Of a stretch of DNA of 64,000 nucleotides, positions 2,832-18,316 are shown piece after piece (within the stretch, counting starts at the first letter, position 1; each line of letters starts with the position of its first letter). Under the pieces are notes generated by a model. It was given only the letters and a program-made list of their open reading frames with translations. It ran no database searches and was not told the DNA's origin. The DNA comes from Prauserella flavalba. Its GTDB lineage: Bacteria > Actinomycetota > Actinomycetes > Mycobacteriales > Pseudonocardiaceae. The position numbers and the translations under genes are program-made. The stretch lies in the NCBI RefSeq assembly GCF_003202235.1, contig NZ_MASU01000020.1:1-64000 (forward strand), read 5' to 3'.

Positions 2832-4120
2832 TTAGTTGGTGAGGAGTACGCGTTTGCGGAGGAGGTCGAGTCCGGCTCGGCCGTACATCTGTCGCTTGAT
2901 CATTTTGATGCGGTTCACGTGGCCTTCGGTGGGGCCGTTGCTGTAAGGCTGGGTGAGCGCGGCGGTCACGGCGCTAGCGTCTTTGCCCAGTCCGCGGGTG
3001 AAGGAGTGCAGGTAGGGCAGGTCAGAGCTGCGCACGGTCGTGATCCACGCGCGTAGCCGGGTGGCGTTGCCTGGGCTGGGTGTCAGCAGTTCCGCGAAGC
3101 CGTGGACGGCATCGGCGAGATCGATCATCTCGGGGCAGGCGCTGGTGAGTTCGTCGCGCAGGTGTCGTTGGACGTCGGTCAGGCGATCAGGGTGGGTGAG
3201 GATGAGGCTGGTGAGGCGGCGCGGCGAGATCGAGGCCCGATCGTTTTCGACTCGTCCCTGGTTGATGTAACGGGCGAGGAGATTCGCGCTGCCTTGGTAG
3301 CCCAGGGCTTTGATCTCCTTGAGTAGCTGTGTCACGCCGACGGTGGGGTCATCGGCACGGCGTTGGCGGAGATGTTCTCGGTATGGGTCGACCAGCGTGG
3401 GCCGATAGACCGGGGCGCGCACGAGACGCTCTGGTTCGGTGATGCGTGCGTACCGTTTGACGGTGTTAAGGGCGAGGTTCAGTCGTCGTGCGCACTCCAG
3501 CATTCCCACACCGCGGTCGAGGAGGTCGTGGACGTGGTGCCAGCGCTCGCGGGTGGTGGTGGCACGTGTGCCCTCACGTATCGTAGGGCGAAATCGTCCA
3601 CGCCCGCCACCGTCACCTCACCGCGCGGCGGGTCCGGTGGAGCCCGGACACGCCGCAGGATCGTGTCTCGGCCACAATTGATGCCGATCGCCGCTGCCAA
3701 CCGCGCGCCGGCGCGGCCGGCCAGCGCCAGCCCAATGCGCGCCACCATGTCCTGCCACAACGGCGTCGCTCGAGAGTGTGGAGTGGTCACACCCGGGACT
3801 TGCTCGGTGAAGGTCACGGCGGCACACTTTCCGTTGGTGCAACGGAAACGCCGCACCTGGAGGACAACCACCACGCCAGCCCCTGCCACCGGAGCATCCG
3901 CCAACGTCCTGTCGTAGCGGCCGTGGACCCGCCCAGAATACTTCCCACAGTGACGGCAACGAGCACGATGACCGCGGACCCGCGCGGAGACGACGACTTC
4001 GTCGACCTTCCGCTCGATGTGTTCTACGATCAACTCACCGAGGTGAGGCCACAAGCTATGACTGTCCACACTGCACAGTCGCCACCCTATGATGCTTCGA
4101 GTCAGAAACCAGGTAGACAC
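2832..4120 (-). pseudogene. ISL3-family transposase with internal deletion and frame break
   Basis: The N-terminal part (3479-4120) has the zinc-binding region CRHCGKYSGRVHG then CTNGKC, the QVPGVTTPHSR block, and the beginning of the DDE domain (VAGVDDFALR). Directly after this, near 3580, the similarity moves to another frame and resumes at TTTRERWHHVHDLLDRGVGM, then continues to the normal end (EGHVNRIKMIKRQMYGRAGL, DLLRKRVLL). About 110-120 codons between VDDFALR and TTTRERW are missing compared with full-length family members. This removes the second catalytic Asp region. The gene is almost certainly non-functional. Confidence 0.8.
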
Positions 4121-4250: not shown

Positions 4251-5291
4251 CTACTTGAACGCGTCGGGGTAAAGACGGGCCGAGATGGTTTCCACGGCGT
4301 CGATGTTTCCGAGCGTTCCGGGGTACAGGTCGCTTTGCGGTACCGCGATGAGAAGGTCGTTCTTGACGGCCGGGATGTCGGGAAACGTGGTGCGCAGGTA
4401 GGTGCGGGTTTGTTCTTCCTGCTGGGGGCTGGCGGTGCCGAATACGATGGCGTCCGGGTTGCGGCTGATGATTTCTTCCGGGTTGATCTCGGCGGCGAAG
4501 AAGTCCGCGAATTCGGGGGCGTCTGGGTCGAAGACGTTTTCACCGCCGGCCTTGCTGATGATGTCTGCTTCGACGCCGGCTCCGATGGCGCCGAGGGAGT
4601 TTCCTTCGACGTAGACCTGTGCGACGGAGAGGCGTGGGTGGTCGGCGATTGCGGTCTCCACGGCCGCAAGCCGATCTTGGGCGTCTTGTGCGAGGTCAGC
4701 GGCGGCGTCGGGGACGCGGAGGATGTTGCCGAGGTTGGTGACGTCGGTGAGGACGTCGGTGACCTCGGCGGTGTTGCGCCGGTCAGCGCAGCCACCGGTG
4801 GCGACATACGCTTGAGCGCCGTTCTGGGCCAGTTGGTCGATGCTGGCGAAGCCCTGCTCGGCGGTGAACTCGTACTCGGTGGGCGAGACCACGAGATCGG
4901 GCTCGGCGGCGAGCAGGTCTTCGCGCGCTGGTGGCGCGTCGGTGCTCAGCACGGGGATGTCGGCGGCCTGCTGCGCGATGTCGCCCGGAAGGGGCGAGGT
5001 GTCGGTCTGGGCTTGCCCGGCGAGAGAGTCCTGGACGCCGAGGCGCAGGAGCAGCTCGGTCTGTGACGGCATCATGCCTACGATGCGGGCCGGTGTGGTG
5101 TCGAAGGACAGCTCTCGTCCGCAGTTCGTGATCGTCACCGTCTCGCCTGAGCCGCCGGTGGAGGCGGTGTCGCTGGTGACACCGGTTCCGCACGCCGTCA
5201 GGGCCAGTGATGACACGGCGAGCAGCGAGAGCGTCGCCGTCAGGGGCCGGCGGCGCGGACGCCGAGACGAGGTGGTCTGGTGGGTGGTCAT
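4251..5291 (-). CDS. FecB/BtuF-type metallophore-binding lipoprotein
   Basis: 346-residue substrate-binding lipoprotein of an ABC importer. A twin-arginine-rich N-terminus (SRRPRRRP) leads into a hydrophobic segment and the lipobox LTAC, so the mature protein should be anchored outside the membrane. The periplasmic-binding-protein fold is recognisable from ARIVGMMPSQTELLLRLGV, the EDLLAAEPDLVV segment and the C-terminal AVPQSDLYPG region. It is the last gene of the left arm of the RiPP cluster and overlaps the ATPase gene by ATGA. The ligand is not readable from sequence; the context suggests the cluster's own peptide product, with or without metal. Confidence 0.85.
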   Translation of the reverse strand: MTTHQTTSSRRPRRRPLTATLSLLAVSSLALTACGTGVTSDTASTGGSGETVTITNCGRELSFDTTPARIVGMMPSQTELLLRLGVQDSLAGQAQTDTSPLPGDIAQQAADIPVLSTDAPPAREDLLAAEPDLVVSPTEYEFTAEQGFASIDQLAQNGAQAYVATGGCADRRNTAEVTDVLTDVTNLGNILRVPDAAADLAQDAQDRLAAVETAIADHPRLSVAQVYVEGNSLGAIGAGVEADIISKAGGENVFDPDAPEFADFFAAEINPEEIISRNPDAIVFGTASPQQEEQTRTYLRTTFPDIPAVKNDLLIAVPQSDLYPGTLGNIDAVETISARLYPDAFK

Positions 5292-6121
5292 CGGGTGGTG
5301 GTCCCTTCCTGAATGGAGTCCAAGGGGTGGACGTGGGCGCGCCCGGTCGGCTGCGGGCTGCGGGAGTCGAAGAGGAAGTGCGGCTGCCGGGTGTCCGGGT
5401 GACTGACGACGGTGGATTCGACCCGGAAGACGGAGCGGATGAGGTCGGTGTCGAGGATGTGCTCGGGCGTGCCGTGAGCGACCAGATGCCCGTCGTTAAG
5501 CACACCGATGGCGTCGCAGGAGCGTGCCGCGAGGTTGAGATCGTGCAGGGCGATCAGCACGGTCCTGTCGGTGGCCCGGATCAGGTCGAGCAGTTCGAGC
5601 TGGTGGGCGATGTCGAGATGGTTCGTCGGCTCGTCGAGGACGAGCACCGGCGTGTCCTGGGCGAGTGCCCGGGCGAAGAGCACGCGCTGGCGTTCCCCAC
5701 CAGACAGCGCGGAGAAGGCCCTGTTGACCAGGTGGCTGGCGCCGACCCGGGCCAGGGCGTCGCAGGCGAGGGCGATGTCGGCCTCGGAGTCCCGGCCGAA
5801 GCCTCGCCCGTGCGGGATGCGTCCGAGGAGCACGAGTTCAAGGACGGGGATCTCGAATTCCTCGCTGTGTTCTTGCGTCATCACCGCGACACGTTGCGCG
5901 AGCTGCCTGCGGGTGAGGGCGGTCATGGGGGTCTCGTCGTAGCGGACCGTTCCTGCCGAGGGCGCGTCGATGCCGGAGACGGCACGAAGCAGCGTGGACT
6001 TGCCGCTGCCGTTGGGGCCGAGCAGCCCGAGGACGGTGCCGGAGGGCACCGCGATGCTCACGTCGGTGACGATGCGGCGTCCGCCGCGGTAGGCATCGAG
6101 GTTCTCGATGGCGACTCTCAT
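5288..6121 (-). CDS. FecE/FepC-type ABC importer ATPase
   Basis: 277-residue cytoplasmic ATPase. It shows Walker A GPNGSGKST, a Q-loop at VMTQEHSEE, the signature LSGGERQRVLFARAL, Walker B VLVLDEPTNHLD and an H-loop ALHDLN, all canonical. The start at 6121 is chosen because it overlaps the permease stop as ATGA; a longer frame exists but runs inside the permease. It should drive uptake through the permease at 6118-7299 and the lipoprotein at 4251-5291. Confidence 0.9.
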   Translation of the reverse strand: MRVAIENLDAYRGGRRIVTDVSIAVPSGTVLGLLGPNGSGKSTLLRAVSGIDAPSAGTVRYDETPMTALTRRQLAQRVAVMTQEHSEEFEIPVLELVLLGRIPHGRGFGRDSEADIALACDALARVGASHLVNRAFSALSGGERQRVLFARALAQDTPVLVLDEPTNHLDIAHQLELLDLIRATDRTVLIALHDLNLAARSCDAIGVLNDGHLVAHGTPEHILDTDLIRSVFRVESTVVSHPDTRQPHFLFDSRSPQPTGRAHVHPLDSIQEGTTTR

Positions 6122-7299
6122 CGGCTCACCCCCACGCTGTCGGCGCGGTCGCGCCGCAGCAGCCACAGGAAGAAGGGCGCACCGACCAGCGCGGTGAGTA
6201 CTCCGAGCGGGATCTCGGAAGGGGCGGAGAGGGTGCGGGCAAGCAGGTCGCAGGTGGTCAGGAAGACCGCGCCGGCGAGGAGGGCGATGGGCAGCATCTT
6301 GCGGTGATCGGAACCGACGATGATGCGCGCGATGTGCGGGACGATGAGCCCGACGAATCCGATGCCGCCGGACACGGCGACCGCGGAGCCGGTCAGCAGC
6401 GCAGCGGCGACAAGGATGCCGCTGCGCAGCCGGTTGACGTTGATGCCCAGCGAGCTGGCGGCCTCATCGCCGACCAGGAGCGCGTTGAGCGCCCTGGCGC
6501 GCAGCGCGGCGAAGAGCCCCACGACGCACAGGGCGATGGCGGGCAGCAACAGGTGGCTCATCGCCGCCGCCGAGACCGATCCCAGCAGGAAGAACATGAT
6601 GCTGTAGACGTTCTGCGCATCGGTCGAGATGGTCAGGTAGCTGGTGATCGCGCTGAACAGCGAGCCGAGGGCGACACCGGCGAGGATCAACCGCTGTGGT
6701 GCGATACGACCGCCTTTGCGCGCCAGGACGTAGACGGCCGCGGTGGCGATCACCGCGCCGATGAACGCCGACGCCCCGATCCCCAGTGAGCTGAGCCCGA
6801 TCCCGAGCACGATGAACGACACGGCTCCGACTCCGGCTCCCGCGGAGACACCGAGGATGTAGGGCTCGGCCAGCGAGTTGTGGACCACGGCCTGCATGAG
6901 AGCGCCCGCCAGCGCCAGTGCGGCCCCGGTCAGCGCGGCGAGCACACTGCGCGGTAGCCGGAACTGCCACACCGCGTTGTCCTGCACGCTGCTGAGCGAG
7001 CCGTCGGACATCCACGGCATTCCGGGAACGAGATGCCCGACGATGATCTTGAGACTGTCGGCCAGCGGCACGCCGATGGTGCCGATGCTCGCCGAGACCA
7101 CGATCACGGCCAGGAGCGACAGCGTCAGCGTGGGTATGAGAATCCGCACGGCGAGGGCTCCACGGCGACGCAGCCGCCGGGGCGGTTCGGGCGGGTTCGG
7201 GCCCGTCGTGGTGGCGCTCCCGTCGGTTTCTGGTCGTGAACTCGTCGGGTCCGGCCGGGGAGAGGCCGGGTCCGGGCTTCGGTGGTTTACCGATGTCAT
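6118..7299 (-). CDS. FecCD-family metallophore ABC permease
   Basis: 393-residue inner-membrane permease. The N-terminal 60 residues are Pro/Ser/Arg-rich and cytoplasmic-looking. They are followed by FecCD-type transmembrane segments, with family landmarks WQFRLPRSVLAALTGAALAL, AGALMQAVVHNSLAEP, LAGVALGSLFSAI, GGIGFVGLIVPHIARIIVG and PSEIPLGVLTALVGAPFFL. The start at 7299 forms an ATGA overlap with the S9 peptidase stop. A single permease gene implies a homodimer. Confidence 0.9.
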   Translation of the reverse strand: MTSVNHRSPDPASPRPDPTSSRPETDGSATTTGPNPPEPPRRLRRRGALAVRILIPTLTLSLLAVIVVSASIGTIGVPLADSLKIIVGHLVPGMPWMSDGSLSSVQDNAVWQFRLPRSVLAALTGAALALAGALMQAVVHNSLAEPYILGVSAGAGVGAVSFIVLGIGLSSLGIGASAFIGAVIATAAVYVLARKGGRIAPQRLILAGVALGSLFSAITSYLTISTDAQNVYSIMFFLLGSVSAAAMSHLLLPAIALCVVGLFAALRARALNALLVGDEAASSLGINVNRLRSGILVAAALLTGSAVAVSGGIGFVGLIVPHIARIIVGSDHRKMLPIALLAGAVFLTTCDLLARTLSAPSEIPLGVLTALVGAPFFLWLLRRDRADSVGVSR

Positions 7300-9068
7300 C
7301 TGTGGTGTGTGCTTTCTGCGGTCGGCGACGTCGTGGGTCGTGCTGGCCCGGTGGTGATGGCGGCGAAGCTGAGCACCGTCGCGCCGAGGCGATGGAGGCT
7401 GTCGAGATGGTTGCTCCCGTGGCCGGTGCGGTCGGCACGCCACACGGCGGCGTCGCCGCCTCTGTCCCGCAGGGCGTCGACGACCGCTTGGGTGGCATCG
7501 GCGTTGACGCGGGAGTCCTCCGCGAGCACGATGCCGAGGAATCTCGGAAGCCGGATCCGGTCAGGCAGAGTGTGGGCGCGGTGTAACGGTGAGATGCGGC
7601 GCAGTTCGTCGATGCCACCGGGACTGTCCGGATCGCCGAACTCGTTGATCCAGTGGTGCCCGAGCGGATGGGCGTCGAGGTTGAGCAGGTCGAGCGGGGC
7701 CGCGGTGCTGACGACACCGGCGCACAGGTCCGGGAAGCCGAGTGCGCAGCTGGCTACCAGCACACCTCCGTGGGACGCGCCGGCCAGTACCAGTTGGTCG
7801 GGCCGGGTGTAGCCGGCCTCGACGAGGCCGCGGGCGACGCAGGCAAGGTCGTCGATCCCGCGGTGCTTGTTCCTCCCGCGACCGGCATCGCGCCACGCCT
7901 TGCCGCGTTCGCCGCCGCCCCGGACGTGGGCGATGGCGTATCGGCCGCCGTGTTCGATCCAGGCGGGGATGGTCGGTTCGAACACGGGGAGGCTCGGCAC
8001 CCCGAATCCGCCGTAGCAGGTAAGGATCAGCGGAGTCGGCCCGTCGATGTCGACGGGAGAGGTGATCGCCACCGATATGGTCTCGCCGTCGTCGGCGGTG
8101 ACCGTGTGCCAGTGGGTGCGGGCGGCCGCGGCGTTCTCGCGGCTGCTGGTCTCGGCGGTGTCTGCCAGCAGCTCGACGGCTGGGACGATGCGTGGGGGCA
8201 GCGCCGGTGCTTCGATGAGAACGTGAACCCGGCCGGCGTCGGCACTCACCCCGCTCGCCACGGCCGGAGCTCCTCGGTAGCTGACGAGGCGCTCGTCGAT
8301 GACGTGTCCGTCGGCGAGCCGGAGGAGGACGCTGTGGCCGTCCCGGACGGCGCCAATGTGCACGTGCCGGCCTGCGACCGCGAGGGACGTGATCTGCAGG
8401 GCAGGATCCTGCCAGGACCATTTCTCGGTCCCGCCGGGCGGGTCGAGGACATGAAGCGTGGTGCCGTCGTCGATGAGGACGTCGTCGCCGATGCCGACGG
8501 CCCGGACGACTGCCGGGAACGAGGCGAAGTGTCTGCCGGTGGCACGGTCGACCATGCGAGTGGGTGTGCCCGGGCGGCTTTCGCAGAGGAGCCCGCGCGG
8601 GCCTGCCGGGAACAGCCGCACGCGCGCCTCAGCGGTCAGTTCCGTGGTCGTGACCCGATGGGCGGTCACATCGAGGCTGATGAGGCGTTGGGGTTCTCGG
8701 GCGACGAGGTCGACCGTGCGCGAGTGCGCGTCCCACACCATGGGCTCGTAGCGACAGCGGACACCCGGATACGGGTGGACCTGACCGGATGCGACGTCCA
8801 CGATCGCGAGGTTCGCGTTCTCATCGGCGTGCTCGGCGAGCTGGATCGCGATGTGGCGGCGATCAGGGGCCGCGGCCATGCGCAGAATGTGCCCGTCCGG
8901 TTCGATGACGGCCTCACCAGTGTCGGCGTGATAGATGCCGCGACGCTGCCGCCCAGGTAGGCGGCTGAGTGTGAAACCGCCTTCGGGCAGGCCAGGCCGG
9001 CCGTGCTGCTCCCAGCGGGACAAGGCGGCATCCAGCGCAGGGTCGATCGGGACGATCACCTCAGTCAC
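7296..9068 (-). CDS. S9 prolyl-oligopeptidase-family serine peptidase
   Basis: 590 residues with no signal peptide, so probably cytoplasmic. The N-terminal ~330 residues look like a beta-propeller, followed by an alpha/beta-hydrolase domain. Catalytic residues are readable: Ser432 in GASHGG, Asp518 in AEDSRVN and His550 in TGHGSN, with YGGFG and HVRGGGERGKAW as typical S9A oxyanion-side motifs. S9 enzymes cut short peptides, often after Pro. Its place between the uptake genes and the divergent RiPP operon suggests it trims the peptide during maturation or hydrolyses the re-imported product to release cargo. It starts at a GTG, three bases after the propeller gene. Confidence 0.85.
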   Translation of the reverse strand: MTEVIVPIDPALDAALSRWEQHGRPGLPEGGFTLSRLPGRQRRGIYHADTGEAVIEPDGHILRMAAAPDRRHIAIQLAEHADENANLAIVDVASGQVHPYPGVRCRYEPMVWDAHSRTVDLVAREPQRLISLDVTAHRVTTTELTAEARVRLFPAGPRGLLCESRPGTPTRMVDRATGRHFASFPAVVRAVGIGDDVLIDDGTTLHVLDPPGGTEKWSWQDPALQITSLAVAGRHVHIGAVRDGHSVLLRLADGHVIDERLVSYRGAPAVASGVSADAGRVHVLIEAPALPPRIVPAVELLADTAETSSRENAAAARTHWHTVTADDGETISVAITSPVDIDGPTPLILTCYGGFGVPSLPVFEPTIPAWIEHGGRYAIAHVRGGGERGKAWRDAGRGRNKHRGIDDLACVARGLVEAGYTRPDQLVLAGASHGGVLVASCALGFPDLCAGVVSTAAPLDLLNLDAHPLGHHWINEFGDPDSPGGIDELRRISPLHRAHTLPDRIRLPRFLGIVLAEDSRVNADATQAVVDALRDRGGDAAVWRADRTGHGSNHLDSLHRLGATVLSFAAITTGPARPTTSPTAESTHHR

Positions 9069-9071
9069 GGT

Positions 9072-10274
9072 TCACCGGCCGACCGGGTCGACGGCGCCGC
9101 CGTGCCAGTACAGGTGCCCGCCCTCGTCGAGTGGCGTGGGCACGGTGAGGGTGTCGATTCCGTCGTGGCCGATCAGGTGCAGCTGACTGTCTCCGCCGCG
9201 GGTGACGGCCACCATCGAACCGGTGGGGTCGAGGGCGATCGCCCTGCGCTGGGCCGGGGAGTCGCCGACCGGATCCCACGGGAGGTGTCCGGCGGCCGGT
9301 GGACGGGACAGTGCTGGCAGTGAAACCGTGCGGAGGCGGTGCAGATCCGTGCCGGAGCGGTCCACGATCGTCACTTCGTCGCCGTCGGGATGGATCGTGG
9401 CCACCGCTGCCCGCCCTCCGCCGAGAGCGAACCGGAACGCCAGCCCCGGGGGAAGTCCCGTGCTGCGCGTGTGGCCGGTGGAGAGATCGACGTCCACGAG
9501 ATGGTTCGTCCAGGCGGTCCACTGACCCGGGGAGGTGGGACCGCCGCGGACGACGCCGACCGCTCGGCCCGTGGCTGGATCGAAGCGCAGGTAGAACGCT
9601 CGCCCCGGAACCGGCCACGGGGTGCGGCCGATCATGCGGGGCACACCCTGATCGATGACGAACCGCTCCAGGCCTCGGCTGGTTGCTGTCGCCGCGATCC
9701 CCGTCCGGTGATCGACGGCATCACCATGCCCGTCAGCGGCGAGATCTGTTGTGGCCCGCCCGCTCAGTTCTGGCACGTGCGAACCTACGTCCAGGCCGTC
9801 GCGGAGCGGGATCGCTTCGATGGCTCCGGGTTCTCGGTGCCGTAGCACGATCGCCGGTTCGCCGTCGCGCTGGTCGGGAACGACAAGGACGCCGGGTTCG
9901 CCGACCCGGGTGCGAAAGCGCACCGATTCGTCCTGGTCGACATCGACGACGGTGACGACATCGCTCCACACGTCCGGGTTCGCGCCCATCCCCGTCGTGA
10001 TCACGACATACCGGCCCGTGACATCGCAAGCGAGATGTTCGCCGGGGATCGCGACCGGGATCCGCCGTCGCTCGTCGCCCGTGTGCACCACGAGCGCGCC
10101 GCCGCGGTCGTCGACGAACGCCCACCCGCGAGGGCGGCCCGCCCGTTCGGGCAACGACAACACGCCCGCGTGTTCGGCCAGCACGCCGGAGCCGAACGGG
10201 CGCACGGCAGCGCCGTGAACGGCGTACACGCTCCCTGCCCGGTAGTCGGCGACCACGAGCCGCGGAGTATCCAT
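9072..10274 (-). CDS. Beta-propeller-like protein of unknown function
   Basis: 400 residues, rich in short strands with repeated xxVVDVD and GDExTIVDRSG-like turns. These suggest a WD40/S9-like propeller, but there is no hydrolase domain or catalytic motif. I chose the ATG at 10274 (MDTPRLVVADYRAG); a longer frame would start inside the operator. No signal peptide is visible. It is the first gene of the left arm and is tightly linked to the S9 peptidase, whose own N-terminal half is a propeller. It may be an accessory binding partner of that peptidase or of the peptide product. No function can be assigned from sequence. Confidence 0.55.
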   Translation of the reverse strand: MDTPRLVVADYRAGSVYAVHGAAVRPFGSGVLAEHAGVLSLPERAGRPRGWAFVDDRGGALVVHTGDERRRIPVAIPGEHLACDVTGRYVVITTGMGANPDVWSDVVTVVDVDQDESVRFRTRVGEPGVLVVPDQRDGEPAIVLRHREPGAIEAIPLRDGLDVGSHVPELSGRATTDLAADGHGDAVDHRTGIAATATSRGLERFVIDQGVPRMIGRTPWPVPGRAFYLRFDPATGRAVGVVRGGPTSPGQWTAWTNHLVDVDLSTGHTRSTGLPPGLAFRFALGGGRAAVATIHPDGDEVTIVDRSGTDLHRLRTVSLPALSRPPAAGHLPWDPVGDSPAQRRAIALDPTGSMVAVTRGGDSQLHLIGHDGIDTLTVPTPLDEGGHLYWHGGAVDPVGR

Positions 10275-10294
10275 GCTCCCAAACCTATTAGATA

Positions 10295-10309
10295 TGAAAA
10301 TCGTTATCA
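10295..10309. promoter_or_regulatory. Fur/Zur-like operator in the divergent promoter of the RiPP cluster
   Basis: TGAAAATCGTTATCA is a 7-1-7 dyad with five of seven arm pairs matched, the architecture of Fur-superfamily boxes. It lies in an AT-rich island in otherwise GC-rich DNA. It is close to the actinobacterial Zur motif (TGAAAATnATTTTCA, two mismatches) and equally close to the Fur 7-1-7 core (TGATAATnATTATCA, two mismatches). It is unlike the IdeR/DmdR box. It lies 21 bp from the propeller start and 80 bp from the precursor start, so one regulator could control both arms. Confidence 0.55.
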
Positions 10310-10388
10310 ACTAGGGTCGAGGTGTTCGCCTCGCGAACTCGGGCCGGCCTTCCCGCCGGCACGGCTCATCTATCGAGAGGAGTCCGCA

Positions 10389-10487
10389 ATGGACACGCAG
10401 ATTGTCGCCGAGATCGAGGAGCCCGAGCAGCTGGCGCACCTGTCGGCCACGCACTCGAACGCGCTCGTCGAGAACCCGTTCGACTGA
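10389..10487 (+). CDS. RiPP precursor peptide (azol(in)e-type, cysteine-free)
   Basis: A 32-residue ORF with a good ribosome-binding site (GAGAGGAG, 7 bases before the ATG). The first 18 residues are acidic (six Glu/Asp) and end QLAHL, like a leader. The tail LSATHSNALVENPFD holds the only Ser/Thr residues outside position 3: Ser19, Thr21 and Ser23. There is no Cys, so a YcaO/SagB pathway could give only oxazolines or oxazoles. His17, His22, Glu28 and Asp32 are possible metal ligands. It is the first gene of the right arm and is separated from the enzymes by a strong hairpin. The leader/core border is inferred. Confidence 0.7.
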   Translation: MDTQIVAEIEEPEQLAHLSATHSNALVENPFD

Positions 10488-10511
10488 CCACGTCGTCAGC
10501 GAGAACACACT

Positions 10512-10546
10512 CCGGTCGGGCAGCCCTTTTGGGGTTGCCCGACCGG
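10512..10546 (+). terminator. Strong hairpin between precursor and modification genes, likely attenuator
   Basis: An 11-bp perfect stem extended by one G-U and three G-C pairs, with a 5-base loop. It lies 25 bases after the precursor stop and 20 bases before the next start. No U-tract follows, so it is better read as a processing or partial-termination signal that raises precursor mRNA over enzyme mRNA, an arrangement common in RiPP operons. Confidence 0.6.
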
Positions 10547-10566
10547 GCCTGTCCGAAAGGCCGTCT

Positions 10567-11439
10567 ATGGTCCCCAAAACTCCTGTCGCTCACGTGCCCG
10601 CTACTGGCGCGCAGGTGCTGATCGACTTCGATGGCACCGCGATGGTACGCACGTCCGCGGGCCGGTTCCTGCGTCTGCAGGCGCCGCCGCCGGGGCTGTG
10701 GGACGTCCTCACCGGGGCCTCGGCCGGTGACGAGGCGACCGCGGCCTACCTCGCCGCGCTCCAGGAGGAGATGACCTCACGTGAGGCCGCCGACGCTCGA
10801 CACCGGTGGCCGGTCTCCAGGCGCACGGTGGGGTTGCTCGGATCCGGTGCTGTCATCGACGAATTGGCCCAGGCACTGGGTGAATGGGGTGTGAGCACGC
10901 AGCGGTACGCCACGAGCGCCCAACTGCTGGCGACCCGGCACCCGGGGCCGGAAGGCGAACCGGTGACTGGTGAGGGCGGGTCCGTCGCTCCGGTTCTGGT
11001 GATCGCCTATGCGGACTCGCCCGCGGAACGGGCCGACTGGGACCGGCTGGATGTCCTGCCGGGCGCGGGGGTCGCGTGGCTGCGCGCCTACCGGGAAGGT
11101 GGGAACTGTTTCGTCGATCCGATCGGCGTGACCGCCGAGGACCCCGGCAGCGAGCAGGTACGGCGTCGGCGCTTGGCGGCCAGCCTCGTGCCCGGACAGT
11201 TGGCCGCCTGGCAGCGGGCGGCCCCCGCGGACGGCAGGCCGATGCCGTCCAGCGCGCGCATCTTCCTGGTCGGCCGCATCCTCGCCGTTTCCTTGGCATG
11301 GGCGCAGGAGACCGCGCTGCTGGAGGAGTACCGACAGACGCTGTGGAAGTTCGTACCGGCGACCGGCACGGTCAGCGAACACCCCGTCCTGGGCTACGCC
11401 CCGCCGCACGTGCCCGATGAGCCGGTGATCCGACGGTGA
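10567..11439 (+). CDS. Ocin-ThiF-like / TOMM cyclodehydratase partner protein
   Basis: 290 residues. The N-terminal ~75 residues (VLIDFDGTAMVRTSAGRFLR) fit the peptide-recognition (RRE-like) part of TOMM partner proteins. The centre has a degenerate ThiF-like nucleotide-fold motif (VGLLGSGAVIDELAQAL) and the C-terminal half has YREGGNCFVDPIGV and RRRRLAASL, as in cyclodehydratase-associated proteins. There is no Cys-x2-Cys zinc site, which argues against an active adenylating E1 enzyme. The role is to bind the leader peptide and present it to YcaO. The next gene overlaps by one base (TGATG). Confidence 0.75.
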   Translation: MVPKTPVAHVPATGAQVLIDFDGTAMVRTSAGRFLRLQAPPPGLWDVLTGASAGDEATAAYLAALQEEMTSREAADARHRWPVSRRTVGLLGSGAVIDELAQALGEWGVSTQRYATSAQLLATRHPGPEGEPVTGEGGSVAPVLVIAYADSPAERADWDRLDVLPGAGVAWLRAYREGGNCFVDPIGVTAEDPGSEQVRRRRLAASLVPGQLAAWQRAAPADGRPMPSSARIFLVGRILAVSLAWAQETALLEEYRQTLWKFVPATGTVSEHPVLGYAPPHVPDEPVIRR

Positions 11440-12428
11440 TGACACCGATGCAGCCACGCGAGCATGTGTGCCGCATGCGCGACGGCACTGAGCTTCGAGG
11501 GCAGTTCTGGGAGTGTGCGGCCCCGGCAGGCCTGGTCGTGATCCGAACCCCCTACGACGCGCGGCAGCACGCGGCGACGGCGAGGTCCTGGTCGGCGCGC
11601 GGCTACCACTGCCTGATCCAGGACGTCCGCGGACGGTACCGGTCCGGCGGCGACTGGACCGCCTACCAGCACGAGGAGGACGATGGGGGCCAGGTGCTCA
11701 CCCAGCTGGGCCGCGAGCACCCCGGACTGCCGATCGTTCTGTTCGGTGCATCCTATGCCGCGCACGCGGCCCTGGAAGCCGCTCGCGGGGCAGCACACGT
11801 CGGCAGCGTCACGGTCGCGGCGGTGATCGTGCTCGTCCCGGCGCTGGGACTTGCCGAGACCGCGTGGGACAGCTCAGGCACTCCGCAGATCCGGCATCGG
11901 ATCGGATGGTGGCACGAACACGGCCGCACCCGCTGTGCCCAGAACCCGCTGTCCGCGGCCGAACTCGCCCGGCGCACAGCGGAAGCCGACGACGCCGGTG
12001 TTGTCGATGCTGCGAAGAACTGGGGCTGGACACCGCACGCGCTAGCGCAATGGCGGCGGCTGTGGCAGGCCGAGCGGATCGACCTGGCCGCACGCTACGA
12101 CCTCGGCATCCCGCTGTTGGTGATCAGCGGCGACGACGACTTCTTCGACAACGACGCCCGCCGCCTGGCGCGCACCTGGACCGCGGCGAGCCACTTCGTC
12201 ACCGGGCCTTGGGGCCACAGGTTGGCCGGAGACATCGCCGACCCCGAGCTGCGGAGCCGTTTCCGCGCTGCCGGCGGCTTGGGCGGCATCATCGAGGCGT
12301 GGCTGTCGGCCCACGACCTGTCCGGAACCGCGGCGGGGTGGACCGAGGTCCTGCGGGACGCGCCTCACACTCGCTCGACGCTCGATCCCGCCGACGGGGC
12401 TTGGCGTCACGAAAGGACTGCGCCATGA
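11439..12428 (+). CDS. S15/CocE-type alpha/beta hydrolase
   Basis: 329 residues. It has the X-Pro-dipeptidyl-peptidase/CocE beginning (RMRDGTELRGQFW, VIRTPYDARQ, IQDVRGRYRSGGDW) and a nucleophile elbow GASYAA with Ser in the usual place. A C-terminal Asp (SGDDDFFDND) and His (GPWGHRLAG) complete a plausible triad. Family members cut acyl-peptide or ester bonds. The CocE C-terminal jelly-roll domain is missing, so this is a short form. Lying between the partner protein and YcaO with ATGA overlaps, it is a candidate for leader removal or C-terminal trimming. Confidence 0.75.
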   Translation: MTPMQPREHVCRMRDGTELRGQFWECAAPAGLVVIRTPYDARQHAATARSWSARGYHCLIQDVRGRYRSGGDWTAYQHEEDDGGQVLTQLGREHPGLPIVLFGASYAAHAALEAARGAAHVGSVTVAAVIVLVPALGLAETAWDSSGTPQIRHRIGWWHEHGRTRCAQNPLSAAELARRTAEADDAGVVDAAKNWGWTPHALAQWRRLWQAERIDLAARYDLGIPLLVISGDDDFFDNDARRLARTWTAASHFVTGPWGHRLAGDIADPELRSRFRAAGGLGGIIEAWLSAHDLSGTAAGWTEVLRDAPHTRSTLDPADGAWRHERTAP

Positions 12429-13864
12429 TCCCCGTCAACGCCGGCCAACCGCGTGAGCACGCCGAGGGTGAGCTCGCGACGACATCACCGCCCCGCCAGC
12501 ACGTGCTGCCCGTCGAGACGCTGGTAGACCCAGAATGCGGCGTCATCCGCTCCGTCCGCCGGGTGCCGCACCCCGCCGGTGCGCCCACCGCCTACCTCGC
12601 CTTGACCGCCGCGGTCTCGGACGCCCGCCGGCTGGGCGAATGGCCGGCTGACCGCGTGTCCCTGGGCACCTCCTTCGGCGATGTGGAACAGGCCCGCATC
12701 GCGGCGGTCGCCGAAGGCGTCGAACGGTACTGCGGCAACTGGCTCCCCGCCGAGCTCCCTGCCGAGGAGCTCCGCATCGCGACCAGGGCCCAGCTGCTCG
12801 ACGATGCGCTCACGCCCATCCCGCTGAGTGCGCTGCCGGTGTTCGCCCCCTGGCAGTACGACCGGGAGAACTTCCCCTACGAGCGATGCACCGAACACAC
12901 GCCCACACTGTGGACCCGCTGCACCGACGAACACTCCGCGGACGTGTGGGTCCCTGCCTCACTGGTCTACCTGAACTGGCGGCAATCCCGATTCCGGCAG
13001 CTGCGGCGCATCCATCACCTCAACTACGCGGGCATCGCTACCGGACAAGGCGCCGAGGACGCCCGCGACCGCGGCGTCCTGGAGATCATCGAACGTGACG
13101 CGCTCGAAGTGTGGTGGCACCTCGATGGACCCACGATCGGCATCGACCCCGCCAGCGTGCCCGGCCTCGCGGACGATCTCGACGGCAGTAGCCTGACCGT
13201 CTCGCTGGTGGTCATGCCCTCGGAGTTCGCTCCCGCCGTCGCCGCTCTCGTGCACGATCGGGACCGTGGCCTGTACGCGGCGGGATTCTCCGCCGCCCTC
13301 GACCCGGCACAAGCCGCCCGCAAAGCTGTCCTGGAAGCCGTGCACACCTGGATCTACACCCAAGGCTGCACGAGTGCCGACGGGTGGGTGTTCCGTGCTG
13401 TCGAGCAAGGCCTGATGGCCCGCGGTCTGTACCTCGATTTCCGCGACGACGCCCGTTATCTCGACGCCGCGGGTCAGCACTGCGAGCACATCATCGACCT
13501 CGGCGCGCATGTCCAGCTCTGGCTCGATCCCCGCGTCCACGACGAGGCGCGCCGCTTCACCGCTCCGGCCGGCGGAGTACGCCCGATCACCGACCTGACG
13601 GCGGTGACCATGGACGAGGTCTACCAGCGCCTGAGCGCACGCGGACATGGCGTCATCACCCGCGACCTGACCACCAGCGACATCCGCCGCACCCCATTGC
13701 GCGTCGTCCGGACCATCATCACCGGTCTCGTCCCCAACGCGCCGGCAGCCTTCGCCTACCTCGGCATGCCCCGCTTCGAGCAGGCCGCCCTCGACCGGGG
13801 ATGGCGCACCTCATGGGACGGCGGCCCGGCAGACCTCACCCTCATCCCGCCCCCGCATATGTAG
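12425..13864 (+). CDS. YcaO-family cyclodehydratase
   Basis: 479 residues. YcaO enzymes activate peptide amide bonds with ATP to close Ser/Thr/Cys side chains into azolines. ATP-site motifs are present: SFGDVEQARIAAVAEGVERY near residues 83-102, EIIERDALEVWW near 219-230, and the later ALDPAQAARKAVLEAVH helix. The C-terminus reads LTLIPPPHM, which retains a Pro run but not the PxPxP ending typical of azoline-forming YcaO proteins. With the ThiF-like partner encoded nearby, cyclodehydration is most likely; amidine formation is an alternative. The start overlaps the previous gene by ATGA. Confidence 0.9.
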   Translation: MIPVNAGQPREHAEGELATTSPPRQHVLPVETLVDPECGVIRSVRRVPHPAGAPTAYLALTAAVSDARRLGEWPADRVSLGTSFGDVEQARIAAVAEGVERYCGNWLPAELPAEELRIATRAQLLDDALTPIPLSALPVFAPWQYDRENFPYERCTEHTPTLWTRCTDEHSADVWVPASLVYLNWRQSRFRQLRRIHHLNYAGIATGQGAEDARDRGVLEIIERDALEVWWHLDGPTIGIDPASVPGLADDLDGSSLTVSLVVMPSEFAPAVAALVHDRDRGLYAAGFSAALDPAQAARKAVLEAVHTWIYTQGCTSADGWVFRAVEQGLMARGLYLDFRDDARYLDAAGQHCEHIIDLGAHVQLWLDPRVHDEARRFTAPAGGVRPITDLTAVTMDEVYQRLSARGHGVITRDLTTSDIRRTPLRVVRTIITGLVPNAPAAFAYLGMPRFEQAALDRGWRTSWDGGPADLTLIPPPHM

Positions 13865-13872
13865 GCCCGCCA

Positions 13873-14964
13873 ATGACCCCCATGACCACAGGCACTCCCG
13901 CAGACGGCACCCGGCGGCACGCGATACCGGCGATGTCGAGCCTCCCGGAACCCCTGGCACGCGCCCTCACTCCGGAGAGTCCCGGGCCCCCGGTGGCACC
14001 CGGACCCCGCGTCAACCCGTGGCAGAAGGCAGGGGCGGCGCCCGTCGCCGTCCCTGAGCGTCTGCGCAGCCTGTTCGACGGTCTGTGGCACAGCCCCGGT
14101 TACCACCACCTGCCCGACGGAACCGCCACCAGCATCCGGCAACGACCGGTGCCGTCGGCGGGTGCCGCCTACCCCGTGCACAGCCATCTCGTGGTCGGCA
14201 GCGCGGGCCTCGACGGTCTCGATCCTGGCCGCTACCTCTTCGATCACGAGAGTGGGAATCTCCTACGGCGGGTCGGATGGGACAACGAGCGTTCGCGTCC
14301 CGCCACCGCGCAGACCACACTGGTGCTGACCGTACAGCCCGGCCGCAGTTTCGGACGATACCGCCACCGCGCGTGGCCGCTCTGGATCGCCGATGTCGCC
14401 TATGCACAGACGGCGGTGGAGTTTCTCGTCACCGAGCGGCTGAGGACCTCGACCGGTCCCGGGCCGCGGCTGCGGGCGCTGCTCGGTGTTCCGCGCGCGG
14501 CCTGCGCTCAGCCGTGGCTGAACCGAGGACTCGTCCCCGAGATCCCGCTGGCGGCCGTCGAACTTCCTCCATCGTGGACAGTCGATGTCGGCCGCAGCCA
14601 TGCGTTGGCCACCCGGCGCTCTCCGGCGCTCAGCGAGTTCGAACAGGCCACGGGCCGTCGCCCGGATCCGCGCGCCGTGGAGGTCGCGCGCCTGTCCGGA
14701 CAGGCCTGGGTCCTCGGGGCGGACCGGGTCGAGACGTGGTCGGTGCCCGCGCAGGCCCCGGCTCGGGACATCGCCGAGGCCGTGTGGCAGGCGCATCGTC
14801 GCGCCGCGTCACTGTGCTACGAGGGAGTGCTGTCGGGCCGGTGGCGGAGCCGGCCGGTCTCCGGAATCGCCGCCGGCCATGGGCGCTGGATCACCCATGC
14901 CCTCGCGATGCTGCCGAGCAACGGGCACGGTCACACAAACGATGCCCAGGAGGCCGCCGCATGA
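13873..14964 (+). CDS. SagB-type FMN-dependent azoline dehydrogenase
   Basis: 363 residues of the nitroreductase superfamily. The motif RPVPSAGAAYPVHSHLVV is the SagB signature around the flavin site. LWIADVAYAQTAVEFLV and the Gly-rich VLSGRWRSRPVSG region follow. The role is oxidation of azolines to aromatic azoles, here oxazole or methyloxazole because the precursor lacks Cys. The N-terminal ~40 residues are Pro-rich and poorly conserved. It begins eight bases after YcaO and ends in an ATGA overlap with the exporter gene. Confidence 0.8.
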   Translation: MTPMTTGTPADGTRRHAIPAMSSLPEPLARALTPESPGPPVAPGPRVNPWQKAGAAPVAVPERLRSLFDGLWHSPGYHHLPDGTATSIRQRPVPSAGAAYPVHSHLVVGSAGLDGLDPGRYLFDHESGNLLRRVGWDNERSRPATAQTTLVLTVQPGRSFGRYRHRAWPLWIADVAYAQTAVEFLVTERLRTSTGPGPRLRALLGVPRAACAQPWLNRGLVPEIPLAAVELPPSWTVDVGRSHALATRRSPALSEFEQATGRRPDPRAVEVARLSGQAWVLGADRVETWSVPAQAPARDIAEAVWQAHRRAASLCYEGVLSGRWRSRPVSGIAAGHGRWITHALAMLPSNGHGHTNDAQEAAA

Positions 14965-16616
14965 TGATCGTGCGCGAGCTATGGCGCGAAGCGGCCCGGT
15001 TCCCTGCCGCACTGGCGTGGAGCATCGCTCTCTTGGTGCTCGTCTTCGCCACCCATGTCGGGCAGGCCGTGGCGATCGCGTGGTCCATGTCGGCGGTCCT
15101 GGACGGGCAGGCGCAGGACGTGCTCGTGGCTCTGGGGGCCATCGTCGGGATCGCACTGGCCCGACTGGTGCTCTCGCTGGTTCAAACCTCGGCGGCGGCG
15201 CGGCTGGGCGGACACGTGCGGGAGACCGTACGCCGCCGGGCGATGCGGGCCGCGCTGGTCCCCGACCGTCTGCACGACACGACCGTCCGGGACGGATCGA
15301 TGCGGGCGACGCTCGGCGATGGGATCGATGGCACCGACGCGTACGTGTCGAAGTACATCCCCGTCATCGCTCAGGTCTTCCTCACCTGCCCGCTGGTGAT
15401 CATCGCCGTGGTGGTGCTGTCACCCTGGGCGGGCCTGTGCGTGGCCGTCGGGGTCGTGCTCGCGCTGGCCGGGCCGATGGCGTGGAAGCGGATGATGGCC
15501 CGGCGCGGACTCGATCATTGGGACAGCTACGAAGCTGTCAGCGCCGACCTGCTCGAATCCCTTCGGGGCATGTCCACGCTACGTACGCTCGGTGACGTGC
15601 CCGCCACCCGCCGGCGCTTGCACGCACGTTCCGAAGCATTGCGACGGGCCACAGAACGGGTCATGCGGGTGTCGCTGGCCGAGACGGGGGTGACGGACTT
15701 CGCGATCCAAGCCGGTATCGCCGCCGCGGCGGTCGCCGCGCTTGCCCAGGCCGTCACCGGGCAACCGCCGGCCATGGACGTCTACCTGATCTTGTTGCTC
15801 GCGTCCGAAGCGTTCCGTCCGATCCGGGAACTCTCCCGCCACTGGCATGCGGGGTTCCTCGGCCTGACCGCGATCCCCGGCCTGGCCCGCATCGGTGCTT
15901 TCGCCGGGGCGACAGACACGGCACAGCCCACCTCGGCGGCCGGTGCCGGCCGCGCGGTCGCACCCGAGCAGGCGAGGCAGTTGCGGGTGAAGGCGCTGAG
16001 CTTCCGTTACGCCGACGCGGACGGCCCGGTACTCGACGGTCTCCATCTGACCGCGCGCAGGGGCACGCTGAGCGCCATCGTCGGCCCCTCGGGGGCAGGT
16101 AAATCAACCCTGTTCGACCTTCTCCTTGGATTTCTCACCCCGGATGCCGGGACGATCGACCTGGACGGGCGGGCACTGCGGGGCGGTGACATCGCGGTGG
16201 TTTCCCAACGGCCGGTGCTCTTCGCCGGAACCATCCGCGAGAACCTCGCCGTCACCGGGACCGTAGCGGAATCCGAGCTCATCGCTGCCTGCCGTGCGGC
16301 TGGCATCCTCGAGGAGATCCAGGCGTTTCCCCGCGGCTTCGACACCGAGGTGACCGAAGCAGGGTCGAGTCTGTCCGGCGGGCAACGCCAACGCCTCGCC
16401 CTGGCTCGCGCGCTGCTGGCGCACCGGCCGGTCTTGCTCGTGGACGAACCGACGAGCGCCCTGGATCCCGACCGCGCCGCCGACGTGATCGAGACACTGC
16501 ACCGGGTCGCCGCCGAGCGCATCGTGATCATGATCAGCCACCGTCCCGAAACACTCACCGGGGTGGACAACGTGCTGCGGTTGGACTTCGGTCAGCTGGA
16601 CAGGAGCACCCCGTGA
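14961..16616 (+). CDS. ABC half-transporter (TMD-NBD), first of exporter pair
   Basis: 551 residues. The N-terminal ~320 residues form a six-helix CydDC-like membrane domain, followed by a nucleotide-binding domain with Walker A GPSGAGKST, signature LSGGQRQRLALARAL, Walker B VLLVDEPTSALDPD and H-loop MISHRPE. It overlaps both neighbours (ATGA and GTGA). It most likely forms a heterodimer with the next protein to export the modified peptide. Confidence 0.85.
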   Translation: MMIVRELWREAARFPAALAWSIALLVLVFATHVGQAVAIAWSMSAVLDGQAQDVLVALGAIVGIALARLVLSLVQTSAAARLGGHVRETVRRRAMRAALVPDRLHDTTVRDGSMRATLGDGIDGTDAYVSKYIPVIAQVFLTCPLVIIAVVVLSPWAGLCVAVGVVLALAGPMAWKRMMARRGLDHWDSYEAVSADLLESLRGMSTLRTLGDVPATRRRLHARSEALRRATERVMRVSLAETGVTDFAIQAGIAAAAVAALAQAVTGQPPAMDVYLILLLASEAFRPIRELSRHWHAGFLGLTAIPGLARIGAFAGATDTAQPTSAAGAGRAVAPEQARQLRVKALSFRYADADGPVLDGLHLTARRGTLSAIVGPSGAGKSTLFDLLLGFLTPDAGTIDLDGRALRGGDIAVVSQRPVLFAGTIRENLAVTGTVAESELIAACRAAGILEEIQAFPRGFDTEVTEAGSSLSGGQRQRLALARALLAHRPVLLVDEPTSALDPDRAADVIETLHRVAAERIVIMISHRPETLTGVDNVLRLDFGQLDRSTP

Positions 16617-18316
16617 CCACGATCCCTCCGCCGCGCACCTTCCGTGCACTGCTGCCGGTGCTCCGCCCCGAATGGCGGGGCATGCTCGGGAGCTATCTCA
16701 TCGGCACCGCCAGTGCCATGGCGCTGGCGGCTTTGTCGGTCCTCACCGCGTGGGCCGTCGGCCACGCGGTCGTCGAACGCGCCCTGCCCGGGCCGGGATG
16801 GTGGATCGTACTGACCGGCCTCGTCGTGGTGCGGACAGTCCTGACCTGGCGGGAAATGGACGTCTCCCACGCCCTGGCCTACCGGGTGCTGGCGCGACTG
16901 CGGATGGCGCTCTTCGACGCCTACGCACGCAGCGTCCCCGGCCGACGCCGTGAGCATTCCGGACATGCCGCAAGCGTGGCGATGGACGACATCGAGAAGC
17001 TGGAGTTCTTCTACGCCCACACCATCGCCCAACTCGGTGCCTCCATCACCGTGTTCCTCACCTGCCTGGCCACCGCGTTCGCATTCCTGCCCGAAGCGGG
17101 CATCGTCCTGCTCGCGGGTAGCGTCCTCGTCGCCACCAGCGCGTTCTACGGAGCCGGAGTCATCCGGCGGCTGGGCGCGACCGAACAACAGGAACGCTCC
17201 TCATTGTCAGTACGGATCGTTGACGCGCTCGGTGCCCTGCGTGAAGTCCTGGCCTACGGTCTGACCTCGCGCATCATCGCCGACACCGTCGACGCCACGA
17301 CCCGGATCACCGCGATCGCCCGGCGACGCGAACTGCTGACGCAACTGGTCACCGCCATCCGTGAGTTCATCGTCACCGCGGTCGTCATCGGCGTGATCGC
17401 CACGAGCGCACTCGCCGTCGGCGTGCTCTCCAGCACCGCCGAGCCGCGACTGTCACCGGCGCTGCTCCCAGCCCTGGTCGCACTCGCCATCGCGGGAGTC
17501 TCGGCCACCACCGACGCGACGACCACCCTCACCCAACTGCACCCACTGGTGGCCAGCGCCCAGCGTGTCGCCGACGGCATCAACCGGCCCCCGGTCGTCA
17601 CCGCGCCGACCTCGCCGCGGCCGCTCCCCGACGGGCCGCTGGGCCTGCGGTTCCGCGACGTGTCTTTCTCCTACGACGACCGGCCAACAACACTGTCGTC
17701 CTGGTCAGCGGACATCGCTGCCGGCGAACACGTGGGCTTGACCGGACCCTCGGGTTCCGGCAAGAGCACCCTCCTCGCCCTCGCCGCACGACTGTGGGAC
17801 CCGTCCTCGGGCAGCATCGAACTCGTCGCCCGCGACGGCGCGACCCTGCCCCTCAACCAGCTCGACGACACTGCCCTCCGAGGGGCGGTCGCACTGGTCG
17901 ATCAGGACGCGACCTTGTTCCACGGAACCGTCCGCGACAATCTCCTCCGCGGCACCACACCGCTGCCCGACGAGGAGCTGACCGCGATACTCCACCGGGT
18001 AGGTACCGCCGAGTGGATCGGTCTCGACGACGACCTCGGCCAAAGCGGGCTCCGGCTCTCCGGCGGACAACAAGCCCGCCTCTGCCTAGCCCGCGCCCTC
18101 GTCCGCCAGCCCCGGATCCTGCTCGTCGACGAGGTCACCGCCAGCCTCGACCCCGGCACCGAACGCGCGATCTCAAACGTCATCGCCGACTTCACCGGCA
18201 CCGCCCTGATCGCCTCGCACCGTGCCGAGACCCTCAGCCGACTCGATCGCAGCATCGACATAGGTTCCGAGCACACCCACCGCACCACCGATGTCCCAGC
18301 CACCGGGGGACCGTGA
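16613..18316 (+). CDS. ABC half-transporter (TMD-NBD), second of exporter pair
   Basis: 567 residues with a membrane domain (about residues 15-315) and an NBD: Walker A GPSGSGKST, signature LSGGQQARLCLARAL, Walker B ILLVDEVTASLDPG, H-loop IASHRAE. The signature and Walker regions look competent. It is the last gene of the RiPP operon and ends 21 bp before a convergent permease gene, which marks the right edge of the cluster. Confidence 0.85.
   Translation: MTTIPPPRTFRALLPVLRPEWRGMLGSYLIGTASAMALAALSVLTAWAVGHAVVERALPGPGWWIVLTGLVVVRTVLTWREMDVSHALAYRVLARLRMALFDAYARSVPGRRREHSGHAASVAMDDIEKLEFFYAHTIAQLGASITVFLTCLATAFAFLPEAGIVLLAGSVLVATSAFYGAGVIRRLGATEQQERSSLSVRIVDALGALREVLAYGLTSRIIADTVDATTRITAIARRRELLTQLVTAIREFIVTAVVIGVIATSALAVGVLSSTAEPRLSPALLPALVALAIAGVSATTDATTTLTQLHPLVASAQRVADGINRPPVVTAPTSPRPLPDGPLGLRFRDVSFSYDDRPTTLSSWSADIAAGEHVGLTGPSGSGKSTLLALAARLWDPSSGSIELVARDGATLPLNQLDDTALRGAVALVDQDATLFHGTVRDNLLRGTTPLPDEELTAILHRVGTAEWIGLDDDLGQSGLRLSGGQQARLCLARALVRQPRILLVDEVTASLDPGTERAISNVIADFTGTALIASHRAETLSRLDRSIDIGSEHTHRTTDVPATGGP

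Follow-up and report, generated by a model that had tools for sequence, protein, structure and literature searches.

A streptamidine-family gene cluster of Prauserella flavalba under predicted Zur control

The window analysed in this work is a stretch of 64,000 nucleotides of Prauserella flavalba (contig NZ_MASU01000020.1, positions 1 to 64,000), in which positions 4251-18316 hold two divergent operons, twelve genes in all, of a putative ribosomally synthesized and post-translationally modified peptide (RiPP) system. The genes named on both strands in a first-pass annotation, made from the letters alone, are all present as open frames, and family matches bear out its picture of a single RiPP operon with a FecB/FecCD/FecE importer running the opposite way. 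On the reverse strand lie the importer (amiF) genes: a FecB-type substrate-binding lipoprotein (4251-5291; Peripla_BP_2, 82.6 bits) with a lipobox-like LTAC seen by eye close to its N-terminus, a FecE-type ATPase (5288-6121; ABC_tran, 107.6 bits) and a FecCD permease encoded by a single gene (6118-7299; FecCD, 318 bits). The closest solved chains of FecB are 4mlz and 4n01, with BtuF lower in the ranking, and the top NCBIfam matches of FecE are F420-0, corrinoid and FecE ATPases, all below their cut-offs (best 25 of 194). The same operon encodes an S9 prolyl-oligopeptidase-like peptidase (7296-9068; Peptidase_S9, 106 bits), for which prolyl endopeptidases are the best solved matches and whose S432, D518 and H550 are kept in at least 33 of 34 aligned sequences, window included, and a beta-propeller protein (9072-10274). 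Two fragments of an ISL3-type transposase (2832-4120) adjoin the FecB gene, in the 2 kb of lowest guanine plus cytosine content of the window.

The forward-strand operon starts with the precursor gene amiA (10389-10487; product MDTQIVAEIEEPEQLAHLSATHSNALVENPFD), followed by amiB (10567-11439), amiC (11436-12428), amiD (12425-13864), amiE (about 13873-14964), amiT1 (14961-16616) and amiT2 (16613-18316). AmiD is a YcaO cyclodehydratase (YcaO, 142.7 bits) whose solved-structure matches include MusD, TruD and LynD, and it is the product of the sole YcaO gene found in the genome (8.09 Mb). AmiB is assigned as its partner by position and by tblastn matches in relatives. These relatives were collected with a 13-sequence AmiD profile from one genome per species in 84,980 species, and the best 80 of 199 were used; AmiB matches adjoin AmiD in all 80. 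AmiB has no Pfam or NCBIfam match, and its "ThiF-like" label rests on a Phyre2 result published in PMC8442711. AmiC is an S15/CocE-type hydrolase (Peptidase_S15, 59.7 bits) with a putative role in leader removal. AmiE is a SagB-like flavin dehydrogenase, as had been proposed, with a weak match (TIGR03605, 22.4 bits for a cut-off of 78.4). AmiT1 and AmiT2 are ATP-binding cassette (ABC) half-transporters, respectively CydD-like (TIGR02857, 334.7 bits, below the cut-off of 435) and CydC-like (TIGR02868, 254.3 bits, below the cut-off of 329), and CydC structures appear among the solved matches of AmiT2. No IrtAB or YbtPQ was named in the 60 best PDB matches of each protein (of 276 and 251), and an IrtAB/YbtPQ-type importer identity of the pair would be tentative.

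The earlier wording that almost every gene overlaps its neighbour is slightly strong: with the chosen starts, 4-nt overlaps occur at 7 of the 10 within-operon junctions. Gaps of 114 bp on the propeller side and 79 bp on the amiB side flank amiA. In the latter, folding of 10489-10566 gives a hairpin of 15 pairs (10513-10545, forward strand; z -4.08, none of 200 shuffles equally stable, without T tail) which perhaps sets the ratio of precursor to enzymes; the fold of the amiA 5' leader is unremarkable (z -0.95).

The cluster almost certainly belongs to the streptamidine family. AmiA, of 32 residues, passes the NCBIfam streptamidine model NF040714 with 67 bits for a cut-off of 40, and its core HLSATH is that of streptamidine letter for letter. 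The published cluster of Streptomyces albidoflavus J1074 (Russell et al. 2021, PMC8442711) comprises amiF1-F4, amiA-E and amiT1-T2; in the window amiA is likewise followed by amiB, C, D, E, T1 and T2, a gene order also kept in relatives. According to the main text of that article, nuclear magnetic resonance shows that HLSATH forms a six-membered amidine ring (calculated [M+H]+ 647.3260), and the family occurs in more than 230 species. The summed residue masses of HLSATH minus water give 647.326, matching the published ion. As the window core has the same six letters and the matching mass, the predicted product is streptamidine itself, given the same processing. Two claims of the first-pass annotation fall with this assignment: instead of an azol(in)e product of LSATHSNALVENPFD, the amidine streptamidine (HLSATH minus water, m/z 647.33) is expected, and the layout, thought to be undescribed, has its main elements in PMC8442711, where more than 90 clusters with FecBCDE-like amiF genes are described.

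The relatives place the window among several arrangements of the cluster. The divergent layout with S9 peptidase is present in 31 of the 80 and the collinear Streptomyces-type layout without it in 37; the importer stands at the far end in 6 (2 with S9) and the last 6 lie on short contigs. An S9 peptidase of at least 100 bits is present in 33 of the 80. One FecCD gene in the window compares with two in the collinear layout, and the second permease is likewise absent from the other divergent-layout relatives listed. The closest named relative found is Prauserella endophytica, with an AmiD 93% identical. Of 394 genomes sampled from the class, 19 match NF040714 (18 above cut-off), as do 9 of 100 close relatives; both counts include the own genome. 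The precursor peptide is near-invariant in the conservation count, in which the pattern used to find the relatives' precursors (H[SAT]NALV and similar) fixes those columns. A diverged ami cluster, in G259, reads HPTCNHALV where others read HLSATHSNALV. At L180:9240-9650, a diverged ami cluster (YcaO 44%) has a precursor ...AHPTCNHALVADLF... with a cysteine in the core and adjoins two Zur-like boxes of 1 and 2 mismatches. The precursor variant [EA]LPHNSASHSNALVENPF was observed in the window's family (L216, L218-L222), and ten genomes, nine of Nocardiopsis and one with the label Glycomyces, have precursors with two core units in tandem (L069, L072-L080).

Between the divergent operons, the dyad first described as Fur/Zur-like is a predicted Zur box by its sequence, TGAAAATCGTTATCA (10295-10309, unstranded). 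It is the sole match with at most 3 mismatches to the Zur consensus in the 64 kb, for a chance expectation of 0.01. Its conservation was assayed in the 270 bp upstream of the core, as the best match to TGAAAATNATTTTCA, in the 79 relatives with readable amiA, L071 (a 3.7 kb contig ending before amiA) being left out. A box with at most 3 mismatches was present in 75 of the 79 (1, 2, 3, 4 and 5 mismatches in 19, 35, 21, 3 and 1 relatives, respectively), and all best matches lie 141-176 nt upstream of the HSNALV-type codons. The same threshold was reached by 8 of 1580 random segments of the same loci and by 2 of 1580 dinucleotide-shuffled upstream sequences; a chance dyad is ruled out by these control segments together with the low expectation in the window. 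After dereplication, 29 of 32 promoters kept the box. An expectation-maximisation search supplied with neither motif nor palindrome rule returned TGAAAATCATTTTCA. In the collinear layout, 37 of 40 loci have a second box no more than 300 bp upstream of the propeller start, and in 36 of these it lies 4.08-4.40 kb before the amiA core. The box was also within 3 mismatches in 17 of an overlapping set of 21 loci (window plus 20) and in 7 of 8 relatives of the same family; these sets share some genomes with the 79 relatives, and the counts are not independent.

The ami box fits the motif tGaNNatSatNNtCa obtained for Streptomyces coelicolor Zur by chromatin immunoprecipitation on chip, as given in the text of PMC5472717. 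The own genome encodes four FUR-family proteins, among them a Zur orthologue whose nearest solved Zur structures are 2o03 and 3mwm (respectively Mycobacterium tuberculosis and S. coelicolor), and it holds 22 sites with at most 3 mismatches for 5 in the control, the ami promoter among them with 2 mismatches. Fifteen of the 22 had loci and were inspected: 5 precede metal or ribosomal genes, 7 lie inside or across a candidate frame start and 3 (L058, L060, L061) were left unsorted. Boxes of 3 mismatches precede a gene for AztA (256.6 bits, cut-off 220), one for type B L36 (72.6 bits, cut-off 70) and a set of L28-L33-S14-S18 paralogues divergent from a CobW/COG0523-type gene. The L33 (named by eye), S14, S18 and L36 paralogues are Cys-less and L28 has one Cys. 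The review PMC6103462 lists both COG0523 proteins and ribosomal paralogues as classes for Zur. A second FecCD/FecE importer of this genome (L048, contig C7:310146) also carries a Zur-like box, with 2 mismatches, and is possibly another zinc-complex importer.

In G348, of Streptomyces-type layout, 8 sites with at most 2 mismatches were found for none in the control. Two are inside the ami cluster, and the others are located between AztA and AztB genes (both above cut-off), at an AdcA/ZnuA-like gene, at a NikA-like gene, at L28-S14/L33-L31 paralogues (L33, L31 and S14 named by eye) and at a binding-protein-like gene, one being unclear. Weaker evidence comes from G223, where 7 sites for none in the control include an AztA-like gene (L149) below cut-off and a NikA-like gene, L147 having no NCBIfam match. 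Control by iron was rejected, a DmdR/IdeR-type pattern having given no box with at most 3 mismatches in the window.

Several counts weigh against these assignments: 4 of the 79 boxes have 4-5 mismatches (L069, L075, L084, L121), 4 of the set of 21 and 1 of the 8 family relatives exceed 3, the boxes of the own-genome zinc genes are at 3, and, of the 22 sites in that genome, 17 (7 of them uninspected) are not tied to zinc or metal genes. Nevertheless, control of the cluster by Zur is strongly supported on this comparative basis, and the joint claim, a streptamidine-family cluster that is under Zur control, is probable. A literature search that had most subscription papers, preprints and supplements outside its range turned up no paper that connects Zur with streptamidine or with YcaO RiPPs; within the same limits, only a negative binding test in PMC8442711 was found on streptamidine and zinc, and the main text of that article (its supplement being outside the search) contains no word starting with Zur, promoter, peptidase or propeller. 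The window cluster is a copy of a known system, with its predicted Zur control as the part not found in print.

The first-pass call of a beta-propeller protein was confirmed by a confident, mostly beta AlphaFold2 model (mean predicted local distance difference test 92.4) that matches propellers in Foldseek; at E 0.01, no Pfam or NCBIfam match was obtained. A search by sequence for a solved-structure relative gave weak matches only, profilins first and none to AztD chains. By fold, AztD occupies 9 of the first 34 PDB matches, with template-modeling (TM) scores of 0.55-0.61, and the modelled fold thus resembles this protein, described in PMC6689063 as a Zur-controlled zinc chaperone. In AztD the zinc ligands are three pore His, with a second site of two His and one Asp (PMC6689063); in the window protein, His34 and His182 are invariant and His79 and His145 near-invariant (26 aligned sequences, query numbering starting at residue 2). 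The likeness is weakened by the top match by E-value, hydrazine synthase (TM 0.48), by as many as 717 matches at E 0.001 or lower, which is common with propellers, their folds being alike, by an identity to AztD of just 12-16% and by the lack of an obvious signal peptide (by eye), while AztD is exported. The propeller gene is present in 74 of the 80 relatives and in 18 genomes of the class sample, 17 of which also match the precursor model, the eighteenth being G259; one of the 17, G384, has a degraded locus with a propeller fragment only, and two precursor genomes (G146, G156) have no propeller. This co-occurrence makes the propeller gene a standing part of the streptamidine system. It may correspond to amiX of Russell et al. 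2021.

The reading that we favour is that of a RiPP system for zinc starvation, repressed by Zur, whose product is re-imported and of which streptamidine would be the processed form. In presence of zinc, Zur should occupy the operator and keep both operons silent, and both would be expressed under zinc starvation. AmiB and AmiD would then cyclodehydrate AmiA to the amidine, AmiC would remove the leader, AmiE would also process AmiA, and AmiT1/T2 would move the product. The FecB/FecCD/FecE importer could take in the product or its zinc-loaded form, which the S9 peptidase and the AztD-like propeller may handle inside the cell; we suggest that a longer ligand, once processed or spent, gives the HLSATH species isolated as streptamidine. 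In the main text of PMC8442711, none of the pathway compounds remained once amiB, amiC, amiD, amiE or amiF1-F4 had been deleted, and re-import with streptamidine as processed form would account for this requirement for amiF and amiE.

A role in zinc acquisition is a plausible proposal to which we give slightly less than even weight. We infer zinc binding and re-import; the published in vitro result speaks against binding by streptamidine itself. The first-pass annotation had the product bind a metal. Its idea of metal import is shared with the authors of PMC8442711, who proposed it from the FecBCDE genes; metal binding as such fared less well, streptamidine having bound no Fe, Co, Cu, Mg, Mn, Ni or Zn there (chrome azurol S assay; liquid chromatography-mass spectrometry). 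Also unfavourable to the proposal, the amiD mutant behaved as the wild type under metal starvation (PMC8442711), and an operon effect, and not a need for import, could be behind the loss of streptamidine seen when amiF is deleted. A bolder version, in which streptamidine clusters would make the first ribosomal zincophore known to us, Zur-repressed, secreted when zinc is scarce, re-imported by FecBCDE and then cut, with HLSATH as spent product, is a tentative idea that we consider rather unlikely. If true, it would explain why importer and dehydrogenase are needed to see streptamidine, why no oxidation and no metal binding are seen in the latter, and why biosynthesis has been lost in some strains that retain the transporters. 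A product that carries zinc would represent a class of zinc ligands that is encoded by genes and easy to vary. The conserved Zur box itself supplies a concrete condition, zinc starvation, in which to seek the product, its longer or metal-bound forms and a phenotype.

The best surviving alternative keeps Zur control and holds that the peptide is a signal or cue of zinc starvation, re-imported via FecBCDE, and not a zinc ligand; we regard it as a serious contender, though less likely than not. It is in agreement with the near-invariant peptide and with the main text of PMC8442711, where neither metal binding, metal-starvation phenotype nor antimicrobial activity was detected, the role of streptamidine is stated as unknown and signalling or development is suggested. 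It fits less well with the importer, for which the closest curated families (none above cut-off) are those of metal complexes, corrinoids and F420-0, and with the AztD-like propeller that accompanies it.

Somewhat less likely, AmiT1/T2 could be part of one uptake unit with FecBCDE instead of peptide exporters. Two Nocardiopsis-like loci (L046:6306-13899 and L205:4169-10940) have lost amiB-E and kept FecCD, FecE, FecB, T1 and T2 beside a Zur box with 0 or 1 mismatch; in L046 propeller and S9 peptidase are only fragments and the precursor is interrupted by a stop, and in the L205 locus neither propeller nor S9 gene was found. Retention of the importer would follow if cells benefit from uptake even when they do not make the product, and that of T1/T2 is unlike the prediction for a pure product exporter. 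In seven other genomes from several families (L206-L212), FecCD, FecE and FecB also stand together with two ABC half-transporters, without ami biosynthetic genes. There, FecB is 54-57% identical to that of the window; with an identity to T1/T2 of only about 30-40%, the ABC pair may not be the same one. In the stretch covered, six of these loci show no box with at most 3 mismatches, and a site of 3 mismatches lies upstream in L212. Further importer loci (L213, L214) have no such pair, the closest families to T1/T2 are CydDC-type exporters, and deletion of T1-T2 lowers streptamidine without abolishing it (PMC8442711).

An azol(in)e RiPP metallophore of unspecified metal, as first proposed, is very unlikely. 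YcaO, SagB-like and FecBCDE-type genes are indeed present, and a published amiE mutant accumulates species consistent with an oxazoline-containing LSA; yet the identical core gives in S. albidoflavus an amidine with Ser and Thr unmodified (main text of PMC8442711). Moreover, the SagB match is far below its cut-off, the SagD-type YcaO score (206.2) is below that of 219.25, the precursor, with two Ser, two Thr and zero Cys in 32 residues, is not Ser/Thr/Cys-rich, and the window has no iron box. Least likely of all, the box would be bound by another Fur-family protein and the cluster answer to iron or peroxide: Fur-family boxes are alike and one of the four FUR-family genes is followed by a catalase-peroxidase-like gene (by eye, L065), but the motif matches that published for Zur and precedes zinc-transport genes (above cut-offs) and ribosomal paralogues in two genomes, G223 being weaker.

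Coelibactin and ethylenediaminedisuccinic acid (EDDS) are not ribosomal peptides. Their Zur-controlled zincophore clusters, as reviewed in PMC6103462, share with the favoured Zur-repressed system the making of a metallophore, here putative, by an actinomycete under Zur, whereas zinc binding is negative for streptamidine. With AztD (PMC6689063), the window propeller has in common the beta-propeller fold and predicted Zur control. It differs from AztD by its low identity and by having no obvious signal peptide. For klebsazolicin and bottromycin, we know of no metal importer or Zur box. Both share with streptamidine a YcaO-made amidine ring (PMC8442711). The nearest system is the streptamidine cluster of S. 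albidoflavus J1074, as described in the main text of PMC8442711, which has the same precursor family, HLSATH core and amiA-B-C-D-E-T1-T2 set with adjacent FecBCDE-type genes, whereas in the window the importer genes run divergently, with only one FecCD, and an S9 peptidase gene goes with them.

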